From Alcanivorax sp. 24 (GTDB taxonomy: Bacteria; Pseudomonadota; Gammaproteobacteria; Pseudomonadales; Alcanivoracaceae): DNA of 64,000 bases. Shown here piece after piece: positions 5,535 to 43,336 of this stretch (positions are counted from its first letter, which is position 1; each line of letters starts with the position of its first letter). Under the pieces are notes generated by a model. The model was given only the letters and a program-made list of their open reading frames with translations, did no database searches and had not been told where the DNA came from. The translations under genes were made by a program, and so were the position numbers. The stretch is taken from contig NZ_SNUA01000005.1 in NCBI RefSeq assembly GCF_004360225.1, positions 124,001 through 188,000 of the forward strand. The letters run 5' to 3'.

Positions 5535-5640
5535 GGCATCGTCAAGGAAGGCTGGGTATTCGGCCCATCATTGTCGGTAAAGCAGCGGCGGAACTAACGG
5601 TGGATTAGAGGCAGGGAATGGGGGTTATTCGAAAGAATCG

Positions 5641-5707
5641 CGAGCAAGGTCGCTTCCCACAGAGAGCGCCACGGAGCCGCTGTGGGAAGCTGCCTTGGCG
5701 GCGAATT
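5641..5707. repeat. GTGGGAAGC-type extragenic palindrome (REP-like), cheZ-flhB gap
   Basis: Between cheZ and flhB, an imperfect inverted repeat pairs a CTTCCCACAG half with CTGTGGGAAGCTGCCTTGGC. It is one of eight places in the window carrying this family. The rest of the 189 bp gap shows no recognisable gene; a promoter for flhB could lie here, but I cannot assign one. Confidence 0.75.
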
Positions 5708-16144: not shown

Positions 16145-17005
16145 TTACTCCTGTAGCGGGGTCAATGCCGCCGGCTCGCTTTCCACGCGAATACGCCGCG
16201 CCGCCCGTTCATTCAGCACCAGTATCGTGATACGACGATTGACCGGATCCCCGGGGTGACTGCCGATCATTGGCACCCGATCACCCAGTCCCGCCACGCG
16301 CAGTAACTTGTCCGGCTCAAGACCACCGGCAATCAATTCACGGCGCGAGGCGTTGGCGCGGTCGGCGGACAACTCCCAGTTGCTGTAGCCGCGCTCACCG
16401 TTGGCATAGGGCAGGCTGTCGGTATGGCCGGTGATGCTGAGCGGGTTTGGCAGGTCATTCAGCAGCGGCGCGAGGGTGCGCAACAACTCGCGCATATAGG
16501 GCGCCACCTGATCACTGCCCAGATGAAACATGGGGCGAGGATCGGTATCCAGAAGCTGAATCCTCAGCCCCTCCGGGGTCACGTCGAAACGCATCTGTTG
16601 ACGCAGTTCGCGCAAGCTGTCGTCGGCGCTGATGGTGCTCTCGATGCGCCGCTGCAACTCCAGGAACTGACGCTGCATCTCCGCCGGCCGGGTCTGGTCG
16701 CGCAGGTCAATACGTGCCTGTTCCCCTTTGGCATGGGCCGGGTCATCGCCGCCGCCGGGAATCGCACTGGTACTGGCGGTACTGCGGTCACCGCCGGTCA
16801 TCGCCACGTTCAGCGGCGTGCGGAAATACTCGGCCAGTCCCTGCAATTGCTGCGGCGTGGCGGTGGAGATCATCCACAAGACCAGGAACAATGCCATCAG
16901 CGCCGTCATGAAATCGGCCAGCGCGATCTTCCAACTGCCGCCGTGATGCGCCTCGGCACGACGCGAGCGGCGACGAACGACAATGCGGCGAACGGCCTCA
17001 CTCAT
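16145..17005 (-). CDS. motB: Flagellar stator protein MotB
   Basis: MotB forms the proton channel with MotA and anchors the stator to peptidoglycan. The single membrane helix holds the proton-accepting aspartate D31 (IALADFMTALMALFLVLWMI). The C-terminal OmpA-like domain has ITGHTDSLPY and a long WELSADRANASRR helix. The 286-residue length is normal. The ATG overlaps motA by 4 bp. Confidence 0.97.
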   Translation of the reverse strand: MSEAVRRIVVRRRSRRAEAHHGGSWKIALADFMTALMALFLVLWMISTATPQQLQGLAEYFRTPLNVAMTGGDRSTASTSAIPGGGDDPAHAKGEQARIDLRDQTRPAEMQRQFLELQRRIESTISADDSLRELRQQMRFDVTPEGLRIQLLDTDPRPMFHLGSDQVAPYMRELLRTLAPLLNDLPNPLSITGHTDSLPYANGERGYSNWELSADRANASRRELIAGGLEPDKLLRVAGLGDRVPMIGSHPGDPVNRRITILVLNERAARRIRVESEPAALTPLQE

Positions 17006-17889
17006 GCCTCACCCACACCCACGCCCTTGTCATCACGCGGGGTGCCGCGCACATGATCTTCCAATTCACTGAAGCTGGGACGCTCGCTGGTGTGCAGCGC
17101 CTTGCGCCCAAACTCCACCGCCAGCTGCGGAGCATAGCCGTTCAGGTTGGCGAGCAGGGTGACGCGAATGCATTGCAGCATCTTCACCCCCTCATGCACC
17201 TGCCGGTCAATGCGACTGGCCAGCGGGTTGACGAAACCGTAGGCCAGCAGAATGCCGAGAAAGGTACCCACCAGCGCCTGGGCGATCATGTATCCCATCG
17301 CATCCACACCCGCGTCGGCGGCCCCCAGCGCCTTCACCACCCCGAGCACGGCGGCGACGATACCAAAAGCGGGCAAGGCGTCCCCGACCTTGGATAACGC
17401 ATCGGCGGGGATATGCGCTTCGTCCTCGAACGCCTCGATTTCATGGGCCATCAGTTCATCGAGCTCATGCGGGTCCATGCTGCCGCTGATCATCAATCGC
17501 AGGTAATCGGTGATGAAGCCCATGATCATCGGGTCTTCCCGCAGCTCCGGATAATCGGCGAACAGCTCGCTGTCCCGCGGATTCTCGATATCACGCTCAA
17601 TGCCCAGTACCCCTTCGCGGCGCATCTTCGACAGCAGCTTGTACAGCAGCGACATCAACGACATGTAGGTTTCCTTGCCGTAGCGGGTGGTGCGCTTGAG
17701 CTGAGACGAGGAACGCAGCGTGGCTTTGATCGCCTTGCCATTATTGGCGGCGATGAAGGACCCCACGGCGGCACCACAGATCATCATGATTTCACTGGGT
17801 TGATAGAGCGGACCGAGATGACCGCCGGCCAGAAAAAAGCCACCGAACACGGAAAACGCCACGATGATGAAACCAATGGGGATCAGCAC
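17002..17889 (-). CDS. motA: Flagellar stator protein MotA
   Basis: MotA is the four-helix stator subunit whose cytoplasmic loop contacts FliG. Helices are visible at about 2-24, 33-50, 168-190 and 200-222. The conserved loop segment MRREGVLGIERDIE and the proline-containing VGDALPAFGIVAAVLGVVKA are present. It has its own sigma-28-like promoter at 17962-17988 and is separated from flhC by the 92 bp repeat array, unlike the short flhC-motA gap of E. coli. Confidence 0.97.
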   Translation of the reverse strand: MLIPIGFIIVAFSVFGGFFLAGGHLGPLYQPSEIMMICGAAVGSFIAANNGKAIKATLRSSSQLKRTTRYGKETYMSLMSLLYKLLSKMRREGVLGIERDIENPRDSELFADYPELREDPMIMGFITDYLRLMISGSMDPHELDELMAHEIEAFEDEAHIPADALSKVGDALPAFGIVAAVLGVVKALGAADAGVDAMGYMIAQALVGTFLGILLAYGFVNPLASRIDRQVHEGVKMLQCIRVTLLANLNGYAPQLAVEFGRKALHTSERPSFSELEDHVRGTPRDDKGVGVGEA

Positions 17890-17961: not shown

Positions 17962-17988
17962 GTATCGGCAGGAACGGGTGGGGCTTTA
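17962..17988 (-). promoter_or_regulatory. Sigma-28 (FliA) promoter of the motA-motB-che operon
   Basis: On the minus strand the site reads TAAA-N15-GCCGATAC, with exact 15 bp spacing and one mismatch at the last -10 base. The leader to motA would be about 65 nt. It lies downstream of the repeat array, so late-gene transcription of motAB-che starts separately from flhDC. Confidence 0.85.
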
Positions 17989-18057
17989 GGGGAATGTGCG
18001 TGGGTATGACGGTTCTCGTTGAACCTGCCGTAGCCGACCACTTCCCATGGTTGGGGC

Positions 18058-19095
18058 CACGAAGGCACTGTGGGAAGCTTGCTTGCAAGCGAATGGAGCA
18101 ACACCGGAGGCCGGCATTCGCCAGCAAGCTGGTCTCCCACGGTTTGAGCCACTAAGCCTCCGTGGGAAGCTTGCTTGCAAGCGAATGGAGCAACGCCGGA
18201 GGCCGGCATTCGCCAGCAAGCTGGTCTCCCACGGTTTGAGCTACCAAGCCTTCGTGGGAAGCTTGCTTGCAAGCGAATGGAGCAACGCCGGAGGCCGGCA
18301 TTCGCCAGCAAGCTGGTCTCCCACGGTTTGAGCTACCAAGCCTCCGTGGGAAGCTTGCTTGCAAGCGAATGGAGCAACACCGGAGGCCGGCATTCGCCAG
18401 CAAGCTGGTCTCCCACGGAGTGTGCCACTAAGCCTCCGTGGGAAGCTTGCTTGCAAGCGAATGGAGCAACGCCGGAGGCCGGCATTCGCCAGCAAGCTGG
18501 TCTCCCACGGAGTGTGCCACGAAGGCACTGTGGGAAGCTTGCTTGCAAGCGAATGGAGCAACACCGGAGACCGGCATTCGCCAGCAAGCTGGTCTCCCAC
18601 GGTTTGAGCCACGAAGCCTTCGTGGGAAGCTTGCTTGCAAGCGAATGGAGCAACGCCGGAGGCCGGCATTCGCCAGCAAGCTGGTCTCCCACGGTTTGAG
18701 CCACTAAGCCTCCGTGGGAAGCTTGCTTGCAAGCGAATGGAGCAACGCCGGAGGCCGGCATTCGCCAGCAAGCTGGTCTCCCACGGAGTGTGCCACGAAG
18801 GCACTGTGGGAAGCTTGCTTGCAAGCGAATGGAGCAACGCCGGAGACCGGCATTCGCCAGCAAGCTGGTCTCCCACGGAGTGTGCCACGAAGCCACTGTG
18901 GGAAGCTTGCTTGCAAGCGAATGGAGCAACGCCGGAGACCGGCATTCGCCAGCAAGCTGGTCTCCCACGGAGTGTGCCACGAAGGCACTGTGGGAAGCTT
19001 GCTTGCAAGCGAATGGAGCAACGCCGGAGACCCTATTCGTCAGCAAGCTGGCTCCCACAGAGTGTGCCACGAAGCCGCTGTGGGTAGCCTGCTAG
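18058..19095. repeat. Tandem array of 92 bp paired extragenic palindromes
   Basis: Between flhC and the motA promoter the core GTGGGAAGCTTGCTTGCAAG recurs at 18070, 18162, 18254, 18346, 18438, 18530, 18622, 18714, 18806, 18898 and 18990, exactly 92 bp apart, with a degenerate last copy near 19080 (90 bp). Each unit holds that half, a short CGCCGGAGGCCGGC-type palindrome, and an opposing half CAGCAAGCTGGTCTCCCAC. The joints between units alternate between a GGTTTGAG type and a GGAGTGTG type. The terminal copy overlaps the flhC stop codon. No gene is present: the long open frames here arise because the repeat lacks stops in all frames. Confidence 0.95.
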
Positions 19096-19664
19096 GCGTA
19101 GGAGGCCGACACCGAACCGTCGTCCAGCAGCGGTCCCGTGCTCCGGGCTCGTTTCCGGGTCTTGCCCGCCCGCGACGGTGGCTGACAAATACCACAGACG
19201 AAATTCTGCGTCGGAGTATGGGCATGGGTGACGAAATGCCCTCCGCAACAGGTACAGGCGGATAGCTCGAACATTTCGCTTTCAAAAAAACGTACCAGGG
19301 TCCAGGCGCGGGTCAGCCCCAGCACCGGCTCGGCGCCATCCAACGCCATTTGCTCCAGGTAAAGCCGGTAGGCCTTGACGAACCCTTCCATACGCCCGCA
19401 CCGCTGATGCACGGTGAGGTGACGAAAGAAGCCGTAGAACAACGACGAGTGAATGTTCGGCAACCAGGTAATGAACCAGTCCGTGGAAAACGGCAACATG
19501 CCCTTCGGCGGCGACATGCCCCGTACTTCCTTGTACAGACGGATCAACCGGCCACGACTGAGCTCGGTCTCTGATTCCAGCACTTGCAACCGGGCGCCCA
19601 GTTCAATCAGCTCAATAGCAAGCTGCACCTGCCGCATCTCGCCAACCAGACTCTTTTCGCTCAT
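19092..19664 (-). CDS. flhC: Flagellar master transcriptional activator FlhC
   Basis: FlhC forms the FlhD4C2 complex that activates class II flagellar promoters with sigma-70. The 190-residue protein matches the family in length and has zinc-site cysteines C137, C140, C157 and C160 ([10 protein letters not shown] and FVCGIC), at the same numbering as E. coli. It starts 3 bp after flhD. Its stop codon lies inside a degenerate unit of the adjacent repeat array. Confidence 0.97.
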
Positions 19665-19667
19665 GAC

Positions 19668-19994
19668 TCACCCTTGCCGCGCGGCCACGGCATCGCCGGT
19701 GGCGGTCATCAACAAGGCGGCATGGGTCTGCCCCAGCCCCTGTTCACGCTTGTGATTGGTCAACGCCTGCAACTGGCCGGCGTCATCCAACCCGAGTCGG
19801 AACAGAAACTGGTTGGTACGCGCCAGACGGCTGAGTTGACGCGCGGAGAGGGACAACAGCACCTCCGCCATGGACTCGTCGATTTTCAAACGAAACAAAG
19901 CGGTGGCGTAATCTTCCTGCAACAGGCGTTGTGCCAGCAGCAGATAGGTCAGATTCAGATCCTGAATTTCATTCAGTATGTTGTCGACGTTCAT
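19668..19994 (-). CDS. flhD: Flagellar master transcriptional activator FlhD
   Basis: FlhD is the partner of FlhC. The 108-residue protein begins MNVDNILNEIQDLNLTYLLL and matches E. coli FlhD (LLAQRL, MFRL-like LFRL, TNQ, HT). The open frame extends 63 codons further upstream, but the ATG at 19994 is chosen because family similarity starts there and AAGGAG lies about 9 nt upstream. Two CRP-like sites lie 205-251 bp upstream, so catabolite control, as known for E. coli flhDC, is plausible. Confidence 0.95.
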   Translation of the reverse strand: MNVDNILNEIQDLNLTYLLLAQRLLQEDYATALFRLKIDESMAEVLLSLSARQLSRLARTNQFLFRLGLDDAGQLQALTNHKREQGLGQTHAALLMTATGDAVAARQG

Positions 19995-20198
19995 TGTTGC
20001 GCTTGCTCCTTCGGTACCCGTACCGAGAGAGTCCCTGACCTGCTTTGGCCGAGGACTCCCGATCCCCCGTTCCATCCGTCTTGCCCGCCGGCCGGCATCG
20101 TTTCGATGGGCGGCGGGAGCCTGCTCATCGGCACCGGTGATATTGTTGTTCCGGTGGGCTTTTGAGTCGGGACCTTCGTCCACGACTAAGCATTTAGC

Positions 20199-24331: not shown

Positions 24332-24455
24332 CCGGACGCCGATAATGCAAAACCAGACCCAACGCCCTGGCAAGTACTAAAACGCTTATTTATTTCCGCA
24401 ATGCTCTTCGACCTGGTGTTCTAAAGCGTCCGGCATCAAGCGTCCGGCGTCCGGC
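24332..24455. repeat. CCGGACGC/GCGTCCGG-bounded dispersed element, copy 1
   Basis: A segment of about 100 bp is bounded by CCGGACGC (24332-24339) and GCGTCCGG (24426-24433, repeated at 24440-24447 and again partly to 24455). Its interior (for example CGCTTATTTATTTCCGC, ATGCTCTTCG and GGTGTTCTAAAGCG) is similar to 28536-28630. It may be a small MITE-like element. It lies in the fliD-fliC gap, whose other contents are the two sigma-28 promoters and a C tract. Confidence 0.7.
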
Positions 24456-25808: not shown

Positions 25809-25877
25809 TTCGCTGCCAAGGCAGCTTCCCACAGCGGCTTCGTAGTTCCCTCTGTGGGAAGCTGCCTTGGCAGCGAA
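25809..25877. repeat. Perfect 26 bp-arm extragenic palindrome after fliC
   Basis: Arms 25809-25834 and 25852-25877 are exact inverse complements around a 17 nt loop, with core CTGTGGGAAGCTGCCTTGGC. The left arm plus loop (38 bp from 25809) is repeated identically and in the same orientation at 27943, on the other side of the beta-lactamase/LysR pair. Confidence 0.9.
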
Positions 25878-27880: not shown

Positions 27881-27980
27881 CGAAGCTGCTGTGGGAAGCT
27901 GGCTTGCCAGCAAATCCAGCGTGAATTCATATCTGTGGCCCCATTCGCTGCCAAGGCAGCTTCCCACAGCGGCTTCGTAG
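27881..27980. repeat. Paired extragenic palindromes downstream of lysR
   Basis: Two opposed copies of the GTGGGAAGC family lie at 27881-27914 and 27942-27980. The second contains a 38 bp sequence identical to the one at 25809-25846. A further degenerate GGGAAGCTGCC follows near 27991. Confidence 0.85.
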
Positions 27981-28462: not shown

Positions 28463-28535
28463 GCCGGACGCCGGACGCCGGACGCCGGACGCCGGACGCC
28501 GGACGCCGGACGCCGGACGCCGGACGCCGGACGCC
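28463..28535. repeat. Heptamer tandem repeat (GCCGGAC)10
   Basis: Ten perfect copies of GCCGGAC plus GCC follow the flaG stop codon without a gap. The unit equals the terminal sequence of the dispersed element at 24332-24455, as if that end had been amplified. The open frames across it are artefacts. Confidence 0.95.
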
Positions 28536-35537: not shown

Positions 35538-35610
35538 ATTCGCTGGCAAGCCAGCTTCCCACGGAAGAGGAGCGACGTAGCCTCTATGGGAGCCTGCCTT
35601 GGCAGCGAAT
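35538..35610. repeat. GTGGGAAGC-type extragenic palindrome between fliK and fliL
   Basis: Two opposed halves (ATTCGCTGGCAAGCCAGCTT... and ...TGCCTTGGCAGCGAAT) pair imperfectly. It separates the fliFGHIJK and fliLMNOPQR units. Further on, AGCCATG-GT-CATGGCT (35677-35692) is a separate short palindrome that could be an operator for the fliL operon. Confidence 0.8.
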
Positions 35611-37286: not shown

Positions 37287-37794
37287 TCCCAATAAACCCG
37301 ATCAGCCGGAGCAGCCGGAGCAGCCGGAGCAGCCGGAGCACGATGACCTCTGGTCCGAAGCGTTGAACGAAAAAAACAGTGGCGGCGAGGACGACCCCTG
37401 GGCCGAAGCCCTGGCCGAGCAGCAAGCCGGTGACGCCAGCGATGACCCGACCGGCGGCGGCGATGCCACCCGCAACGCAGGTGGCCAGGTGTTCAAGCCA
37501 CTGGAAGCGGAAGCCGGGTCTGGTTCCGGGCCGCGCGATCTGGAAATGATCATGGACATTCCGGTGAAGCTGACGGTGGAGCTGGGGCGTACCCGCATCA
37601 CCATAAAACAGCTGCTCGAGCTGGCTCAGGGGTCAGTGATTGAACTGGACGGCCTGGCCGGCGAGCCCATGGACATTCTGATCAATGGATACCTGATCGC
37701 CCAAGGCGAGGTGGTGGTGGTGGACGATCGCTACGGCATCCGTATCACCGAAATCGCCACCCCGTCCGAACGGGTCCAGAAGCTGAATCGCTGA
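37279..37794 (+). CDS. fliN: Flagellar motor switch protein FliN
   Basis: FliN forms the base of the C-ring and docks FliH. The SpoA domain (about 92-165: MDIPVKLTVELGRTRITIKQ, EPMDILINGYLIAQGEVVVV) is standard. The 90-residue acidic N-terminus is longer than in E. coli and starts with a PEQ repeat encoded by four perfect copies of the 9-mer CAGCCGGAG (37303-37338). Confidence 0.97.
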   Translation: MSDPNKPDQPEQPEQPEQPEHDDLWSEALNEKNSGGEDDPWAEALAEQQAGDASDDPTGGGDATRNAGGQVFKPLEAEAGSGSGPRDLEMIMDIPVKLTVELGRTRITIKQLLELAQGSVIELDGLAGEPMDILINGYLIAQGEVVVVDDRYGIRITEIATPSERVQKLNR

Positions 37795-40077: not shown

Positions 40078-40151
40078 ACTGTGGGAAGCTTGCTTGCAAG
40101 CGAATGGACTTTCCAGCCCAAAGATTCGCTTGCAAGCAAGCTTCCCACAGT
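40078..40151. repeat. Perfect 28 bp-arm palindrome between fliR and flgL (probable bidirectional terminator)
   Basis: Arms 40078-40105 and 40124-40151 are exact inverse complements with an 18 nt loop and the GTGGGAAGCTTGCTTGCAAG core of the big array. It lies between the convergent ends of fliLMNOPQR and flgBCDEFGHIJKL, where a strong hairpin could stop or protect both mRNAs. Confidence 0.9.
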
Positions 40152-43264: not shown

Positions 43265-43336
43265 ATTCGCTGCCAAGGCAGCTTCCCACAGCGGCTCCGT
43301 AGTAACCTGCTGTGGGAAGCTGCCTTGGCAGCGAAT
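43265..43336. repeat. Perfect 28 bp-arm palindrome between flgJ and flgK
   Basis: Arms 43265-43292 and 43309-43336 are exact inverse complements around 16 nt, with core CTGTGGGAAGCTGCCTTGGC. It lies 28 bp after the flgJ stop and upstream of the flgK promoter, so it may end or stabilise the flgB-J transcript. Confidence 0.9.

Follow-up and report, generated by a model that had tools for sequence, protein, structure and literature searches.

The flhC-motA gap of Alcanivorax sp. 24 carries a long tandem REPIN array, one of many in its genome

The window, a stretch of 64,000 nucleotides from the marine bacterium Alcanivorax sp. 24 (host genome placed in the genus Alloalcanivorax), carries the flagellar genes flhD, flhC and motA on the same strand, and the gap between flhC and motA contains a long tandem repeat (Table 1). 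As the sequence-only reading had stated, this array starts inside the flhC stop codon (19092-19094); the distance to the -35 element of the sigma-28-type promoter, which we take to be that of motA, is 67 bases, in agreement with the ~70 bp stated there. The stop codon is a TAG also in A. xenomutans and A. balearicus, both devoid of the array, and therefore the array did not create the flhC stop. Both species keep the sigma-28-type promoter of motA as well; in L099 and L104, from two species of the genus that stand further off, TCAA replaces TAAA in this promoter. L096, L098, L102 and L106 did not enter this comparison. According to the portion of PMC10578931 considered here, the sigma-28 promoter of motA in E. 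coli sits within flhC and also gives rise to the MotR sRNA, whereas in the window it lies beyond the array.

The core GGGAAGCTTGC is found 11 times between 18072 and 18992, and all ten intervals measure exactly 92. The claim of a 92-bp period without a single indel holds for these ten core intervals but not for the flhC-side unit, which is 2 bp shorter and more diverged. Two types of unit joint had been described and were recovered, units 1-10 ending in either TTTGA (5/10) or AGTGT (5/10). Each unit consists of two inverted REPs with a 5' GTGG, spaced alternately 48 and 44 bp. The REP pattern matches the window 35 times (0.87 expected from shuffles), and 21 of the 35 matches are inside the array; since decayed half-REPs are present at both array edges, the inverted REP pairs with GTGGG inside number about 12 (by eye). 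Across units 1-10, variation is limited to 11 of the 92 columns, all of which belong to the spacers (11/42) rather than to the REP arms (0/50). A nearest-neighbour growth pattern among the array units was not significant (correlation 0.14, permutation p 0.17).

Table 1. Features of the flhC-motA region (window coordinates) and copies of the composite element in the window genome.
Feature	Position	Strand	Remarks
motA	17002..17889	-	Pfam MotA_N, MotA_ExbB
Presumed sigma-28-type promoter of motA	17962..17988	-	TAAAGCCC-N11-GCCGATAC
Decayed half-REP, motA side	18027..18050 (approximate)	-	alignment, by eye; also in A. xenomutans
Tandem REPIN array	18056..19093	no strand	92-bp units; Tandem Repeats Finder: period 92, 11.3 copies as assembled, 94% matches, 0% indels, score 1691
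REP type A, GTGGGAAGCTTGCTTGCAAGCGA	first intact copy 18070..18092, last 18990-19012	+	11 copies
REP type B, GTGGGAGACCAGCTTGCTGGCGA	first copy 18118..18140, last 18946-18968	-	10 copies
Diverged flhC-side unit	18976..19067	no strand	2 bp short compared with other units; by eye
Decayed half-REP overlapping flhC stop codon	19080..19102 (approximate)	+	by eye
flhC	19092..19664	-	Pfam FlhC, E 1.6e-86
flhD	19668..19997	-	Pfam FlhD, E 3.4e-35
Composite element copies	L128:1026-2477; L114, L118, L120, L121, L124, L127, L129, L131, L132, L138, L140, L144		window genome

REPINs consist of two inverted REP palindromes and form a non-autonomous repeat family associated with the RAYT tyrosine transposase. 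The array units are such inverted REP pairs able to form a long hairpin, so that the earlier comparison with BIMEs was right in kind. Furthermore, each repeat begins with a 5' GT(A/G)G tetranucleotide followed by a palindrome, in line with the REP definition in PMC3686654, and near-identical REPINs follow one another in tandem with their flanking sequence included, as in the tandem REPIN clusters defined by Bertels and Rainey 2011 (PMC3116915), both definitions being taken from parts of these papers. Elsewhere in the window there are six more REP pairs (5638-5704, 25810-25876, 27891-27967, 35540-35608, 40081-40148 and 43267-43334) and two single REP-like matches; the six pairs mostly have a different palindrome (GCTGCCTTGGCAGC), one that was not found in the arrays. 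The window also contains a perfect 9-bp tandem repeat, CAGCCGGAG, of 4.2 copies (37303-37340).

The predicted folding agrees with the hairpins proposed from the sequence: RNA folds of four units and two joints had energies from -41.1 to -49.4 kcal/mol (z from -3.3 to -5.2), and a 71-nt stretch folded as DNA gave z -4.1. The suggested binding of IHF, a trait of one class of E. coli BIMEs, found no footing in a search for predicted sites, as 18056-19093 contains no match to the IHF consensus at ≤1 mismatch. Three intrinsic terminators were found in 17.8-20.3 kb against 3.2 expected, none of them within the array. A search of Rfam left the array without a match (one chance hit outside it, E 0.68) and gave only eight matches, all far under the gathering scores, at three other array loci; a near-match search of plasmids gave no match. 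We rejected a CRISPR, which has identical repeats and unique spacers, as the spacers of the array themselves repeat. A coding array was rejected as well: 92 bp do not make a whole number of codons, and the many overlapping frames follow from the repeat.

Of 80 flhC loci compared, 72 also contain motA and 8 lack it in the locus. The flhC-motA gap is 1202 bp here versus 84-325 bp in these 72 other loci, none of which holds a comparable array; in the 12 other genomes of the genus, which are partly of the same species, it is 84-276 bp. In A. xenomutans (gap 276 bp), one decayed REPIN aligns to unit 1 and shares with it both the spacer and the junction on the motA side, and A. balearicus (gap 152 bp) has a remnant-like piece alone. 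In A. mobilis, this gap (L022:2291-2565, also L104) contains a heptamer-armed palindromic stretch with GCCGGAC-type repeats and without REPINs. At three other array loci, comparison with the three nearest genomes revealed an array at 0 of 9 places; at one of these loci (L110), a single REPIN is present in two of the genomes by scan and in the third by eye. An identical unit number in all relatives, set beforehand as speaking against the sequence-only reading, was not found, the relatives compared being without the array here. Given the single decayed REPIN at this position in A. xenomutans, growth of the array in situ appears, from these alignments, the most likely course.

The array is one member of a genome-wide REPIN family. 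Two queries with the REPIN unit gave 286 and 289 matches in the genome, and 28 of 29 arrays examined lie between two genes as predicted by heuristic gene calls; high copy number and mostly intergenic position are both expected of REPs. Arrays were surveyed in 40 stretches around the ~150 matches listed per query, so further arrays are missed. These stretches and the window, with contig C99 left out, contain 32 runs with at least three anchored intervals. Four of these runs make up only two arrays, one divided by the pattern and the other by the cut at C12:20000, so that the total is 30 arrays; six runs lie at contig ends and, in the worst case, would be halves that pair up into three arrays. 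The number of separate arrays is therefore 27 or more, with at least 26 besides that between flhC and motA. A flagellar speciality is not borne out by this distribution, and a special flagellar role of the array is a priori unlikely. The units measure 87-97 bp across the genome (mostly 88-94 bp), with up to 12 anchored intervals per array. Their mean identity is 0.95 within arrays and 0.86 between arrays (the latter from the first four units), and the flhC-motA units share 0.94 identity among themselves compared with at best 0.89 to any other array. Both unit spacers are alike in arrays at different loci, and therefore, apart from local growth, longer pieces may have spread or arrays may have converted one another.

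The genome has four Y1-type genes at E 0.01. One of them, on contig C12, encodes a protein of 151 aa (Y1_Tnp, E 1.4e-9) that resembles TnpA-REP 4er8 (E 6.8e-5); a REPIN is located just past its stop codon and a 9-unit array ~107 bases upstream. Judging from its sequence, this is a RAYT gene of the cognate type (Y1/HUH) flanked by the same REPs, while the loci of the other three Y1-type genes gave no REP-like match. At E 0.001, relatives of the 151-aa RAYT, including many weak ones, occur in 35 of the 46 genomes that represent the bacterial family. When one REP pattern was applied to 20 RAYT loci, the REP type of the array was seen in the window genome and in G001, other GTGG REPs in G006, G008 and G009, GTAG REPs in G002 and a few weaker matches at two loci (L155, L161); 12 loci were without a match. 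RAYT and REP are not strictly paired: genome G012 has 53 REPIN matches and no match to the 151-aa RAYT, and genome G002 has 57 REPIN matches although its RAYT is flanked by GTAG REPs instead. The RAYTs of the close relatives G002 (L151) and G001 (L149) are 58-67% identical to that of the window genome, and the FlhC proteins 95-96%.

Among 37 arrays tested, 23 have at least one flank in common with others; the flhC-motA array has none. The shared flanks belong to a composite element with the order GCCGGAC heptamers, left arm (~140-220 bp, a few longer), header REPIN, 92-bp units, right arm (~140 bp) and inverted heptamers. In 13 copies, the span from header to trailer is 214 (three times), 396, 397, 405, 489, 577, 584, 673, 766, 949 or 1133 bp, that is, 214 bp plus 0, 2, 3, 4, 5, 6, 8 or 10 times 92, within 7 bp. 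These 92-bp steps imply that whole units were gained or lost between copies. The trailer has 24 matches over at least 134 of 148 bases in the window genome and none comparable in the 12 other genomes of the genus, where the longest match covers 73 query bases (71%) and the best-scoring one 59 bases (95%). In the window itself, GCCGGAC forms a perfect 7-bp tandem repeat of 10.4 copies (28463-28535), and there are a heptamer pair (24442-24455) and a trailer remnant of 33 bases (24360-24393).

The proximity of the RAYT gene to arrays, together with the similarity of both unit spacers at many loci, could also indicate that a transposase deposited the array in one step, e.g. from a circular or rolling-circle intermediate containing REPIN units; a model in which circular intermediates may give rise to arrays is related in the part of PMC3733652 considered here. 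We regard such deposition as improbable, since a resident REPIN with the same spacer and junction exists in A. xenomutans, the array units are closer to one another than to those of any other array, and the composite copies differ by whole units between constant flanks. The recent tandem amplification proposed in the sequence-only reading is supported by the 72 loci without a like array, the decayed REPIN of A. xenomutans and the composite elements varying in whole 92-bp units.

The position of the array exactly between flhC and the motA promoter, the constancy of the REP arms in ten units with variation confined to the spacers, and the whole-unit differences between composite elements might instead point to a selected regulatory module, in which a strain-variable unit number tunes flhDC mRNA stability or motA read-through as a length switch for motility. 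This is very improbable: at least 26 other arrays of the family occupy unrelated places, the relatives compared have no array in this gap, and constant arms with variable spacers also occur in arrays without flagellar neighbours. Indeed, in 20 arrays that each have four or more units of equal length, 69 of 1000 columns vary in the REP arms and 127 of 834 in the spacers (columns are not independent); the contrast rests mainly on arrays without shared flanks, one of which (L134) tends the opposite way. Of 29 arrays with gene context from heuristic gene calls (contig-end arrays left out), 14 lie between co-directional, 12 between convergent and 2 between divergent genes, and 1 could not be assigned; these counts fit avoidance of gaps with promoters alone.

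The number of units could be an artefact, a really shorter or longer array having been expanded or collapsed by the assembler. Several arrays are found at contig ends, and ~3.4 kb of the 7277-bp contig C99 consist of exact pieces of several arrays, 325 bp being exact with the flhC-motA array. However, the latter is inside a 318-kb contig with unique flanks, exact repeats inside it reach at most 139 bp, and its units differ by up to 10 bases, so that reads of at least 250 bp could resolve it. We consider an artefact possible but not the likelier case: the existence of the array is hardly in doubt, and the count of 11, being that of the assembler, is uncertain. Note that the pieces in C99 (G000:C99, L108) occur in both orientations and give this contig the look of an assembly chimera.

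Taken together, we favour, with a probability of roughly 80%, that the array is a tandemly amplified REPIN, multiplied in place and chiefly a by-product of the expansion of its family. The ancestor would have had a single REPIN between flhC and motA, which, together with its spacers, would have multiplied into ~11 near-identical 92-bp units, most likely by unequal recombination or replication slippage between units. As the array lies between the flhC stop codon and motA's own sigma-28-type promoter, it probably forms a hairpin-rich 3' end of the flhDC mRNA, and the last part of run-on flhDC transcripts would be a series of strong hairpins. Such structures could keep exonucleases off the flhDC 3' end and lower read-through into motA; a measurable effect is conceivable, if somewhat doubtful. 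A still bolder proposal is that the family behaves like satellite DNA, having built dozens of arrays whose period is nearly fixed and which are absent from the relatives compared, and forming a variable block inside the composite element (at least 24 trailers), and that the flhC-motA array likewise creates a strain-variable flhDC-motA boundary nudging the flagellar cascade. We think this unlikely. Two lines of work offer themselves: composite copies differing by 92-bp steps within one genome make the growth of REP arrays directly testable, and with a natural block of hairpins behind flhC its effect on the mRNA of the flagellar cascade can be measured.

A titles-level search of one literature collection found no paper on REP or REPIN arrays of Alcanivorax. 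The feature between flhC and motA belongs to a known kind, being a long tandem array of REPINs and one of many, and it can be set beside systems described in the parts of three papers considered here. It resembles E. coli BIMEs, i.e. REPIN-like doublets in tandem in intergenic gaps (PMC3686654); for these, interaction with IHF, gyrase and DNA polymerase I has been reported in the same text, whereas no IHF-like site was found in the array. With the GTRG-tagged REPs and RAYTs of fluorescent pseudomonads (PMC3686654), it shares the 5' GTGG followed by a palindrome, and the pseudomonad REP GTGGGAGCTGGCTTGCCAGCGAT is very like the array REPs; the genus here, however, is Alloalcanivorax, and arrays so long are not mentioned in the portion of that paper compared. 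The GTAG/CGTC palindromic repeat super-families (PMC3733652) likewise form large clusters with dimers reiterated in tandem together with flanking DNA, and "Alcanivorax" has 0 occurrences in the corresponding text. A further parallel is Pseudomonas fluorescens SBW25, with its inverted REP pairs forming hairpins, tandem clusters that include flanking sequence and clusters beside RAYT genes. For SBW25, the portion of PMC3116915 considered gives 16 tandem clusters, the largest of four REPINs, whereas in the genome studied here the arrays number at least 27, have up to 12 anchored intervals and, at flhC-motA, a period of 92 bp; they thus exceed the SBW25 clusters reported there in both length and number.
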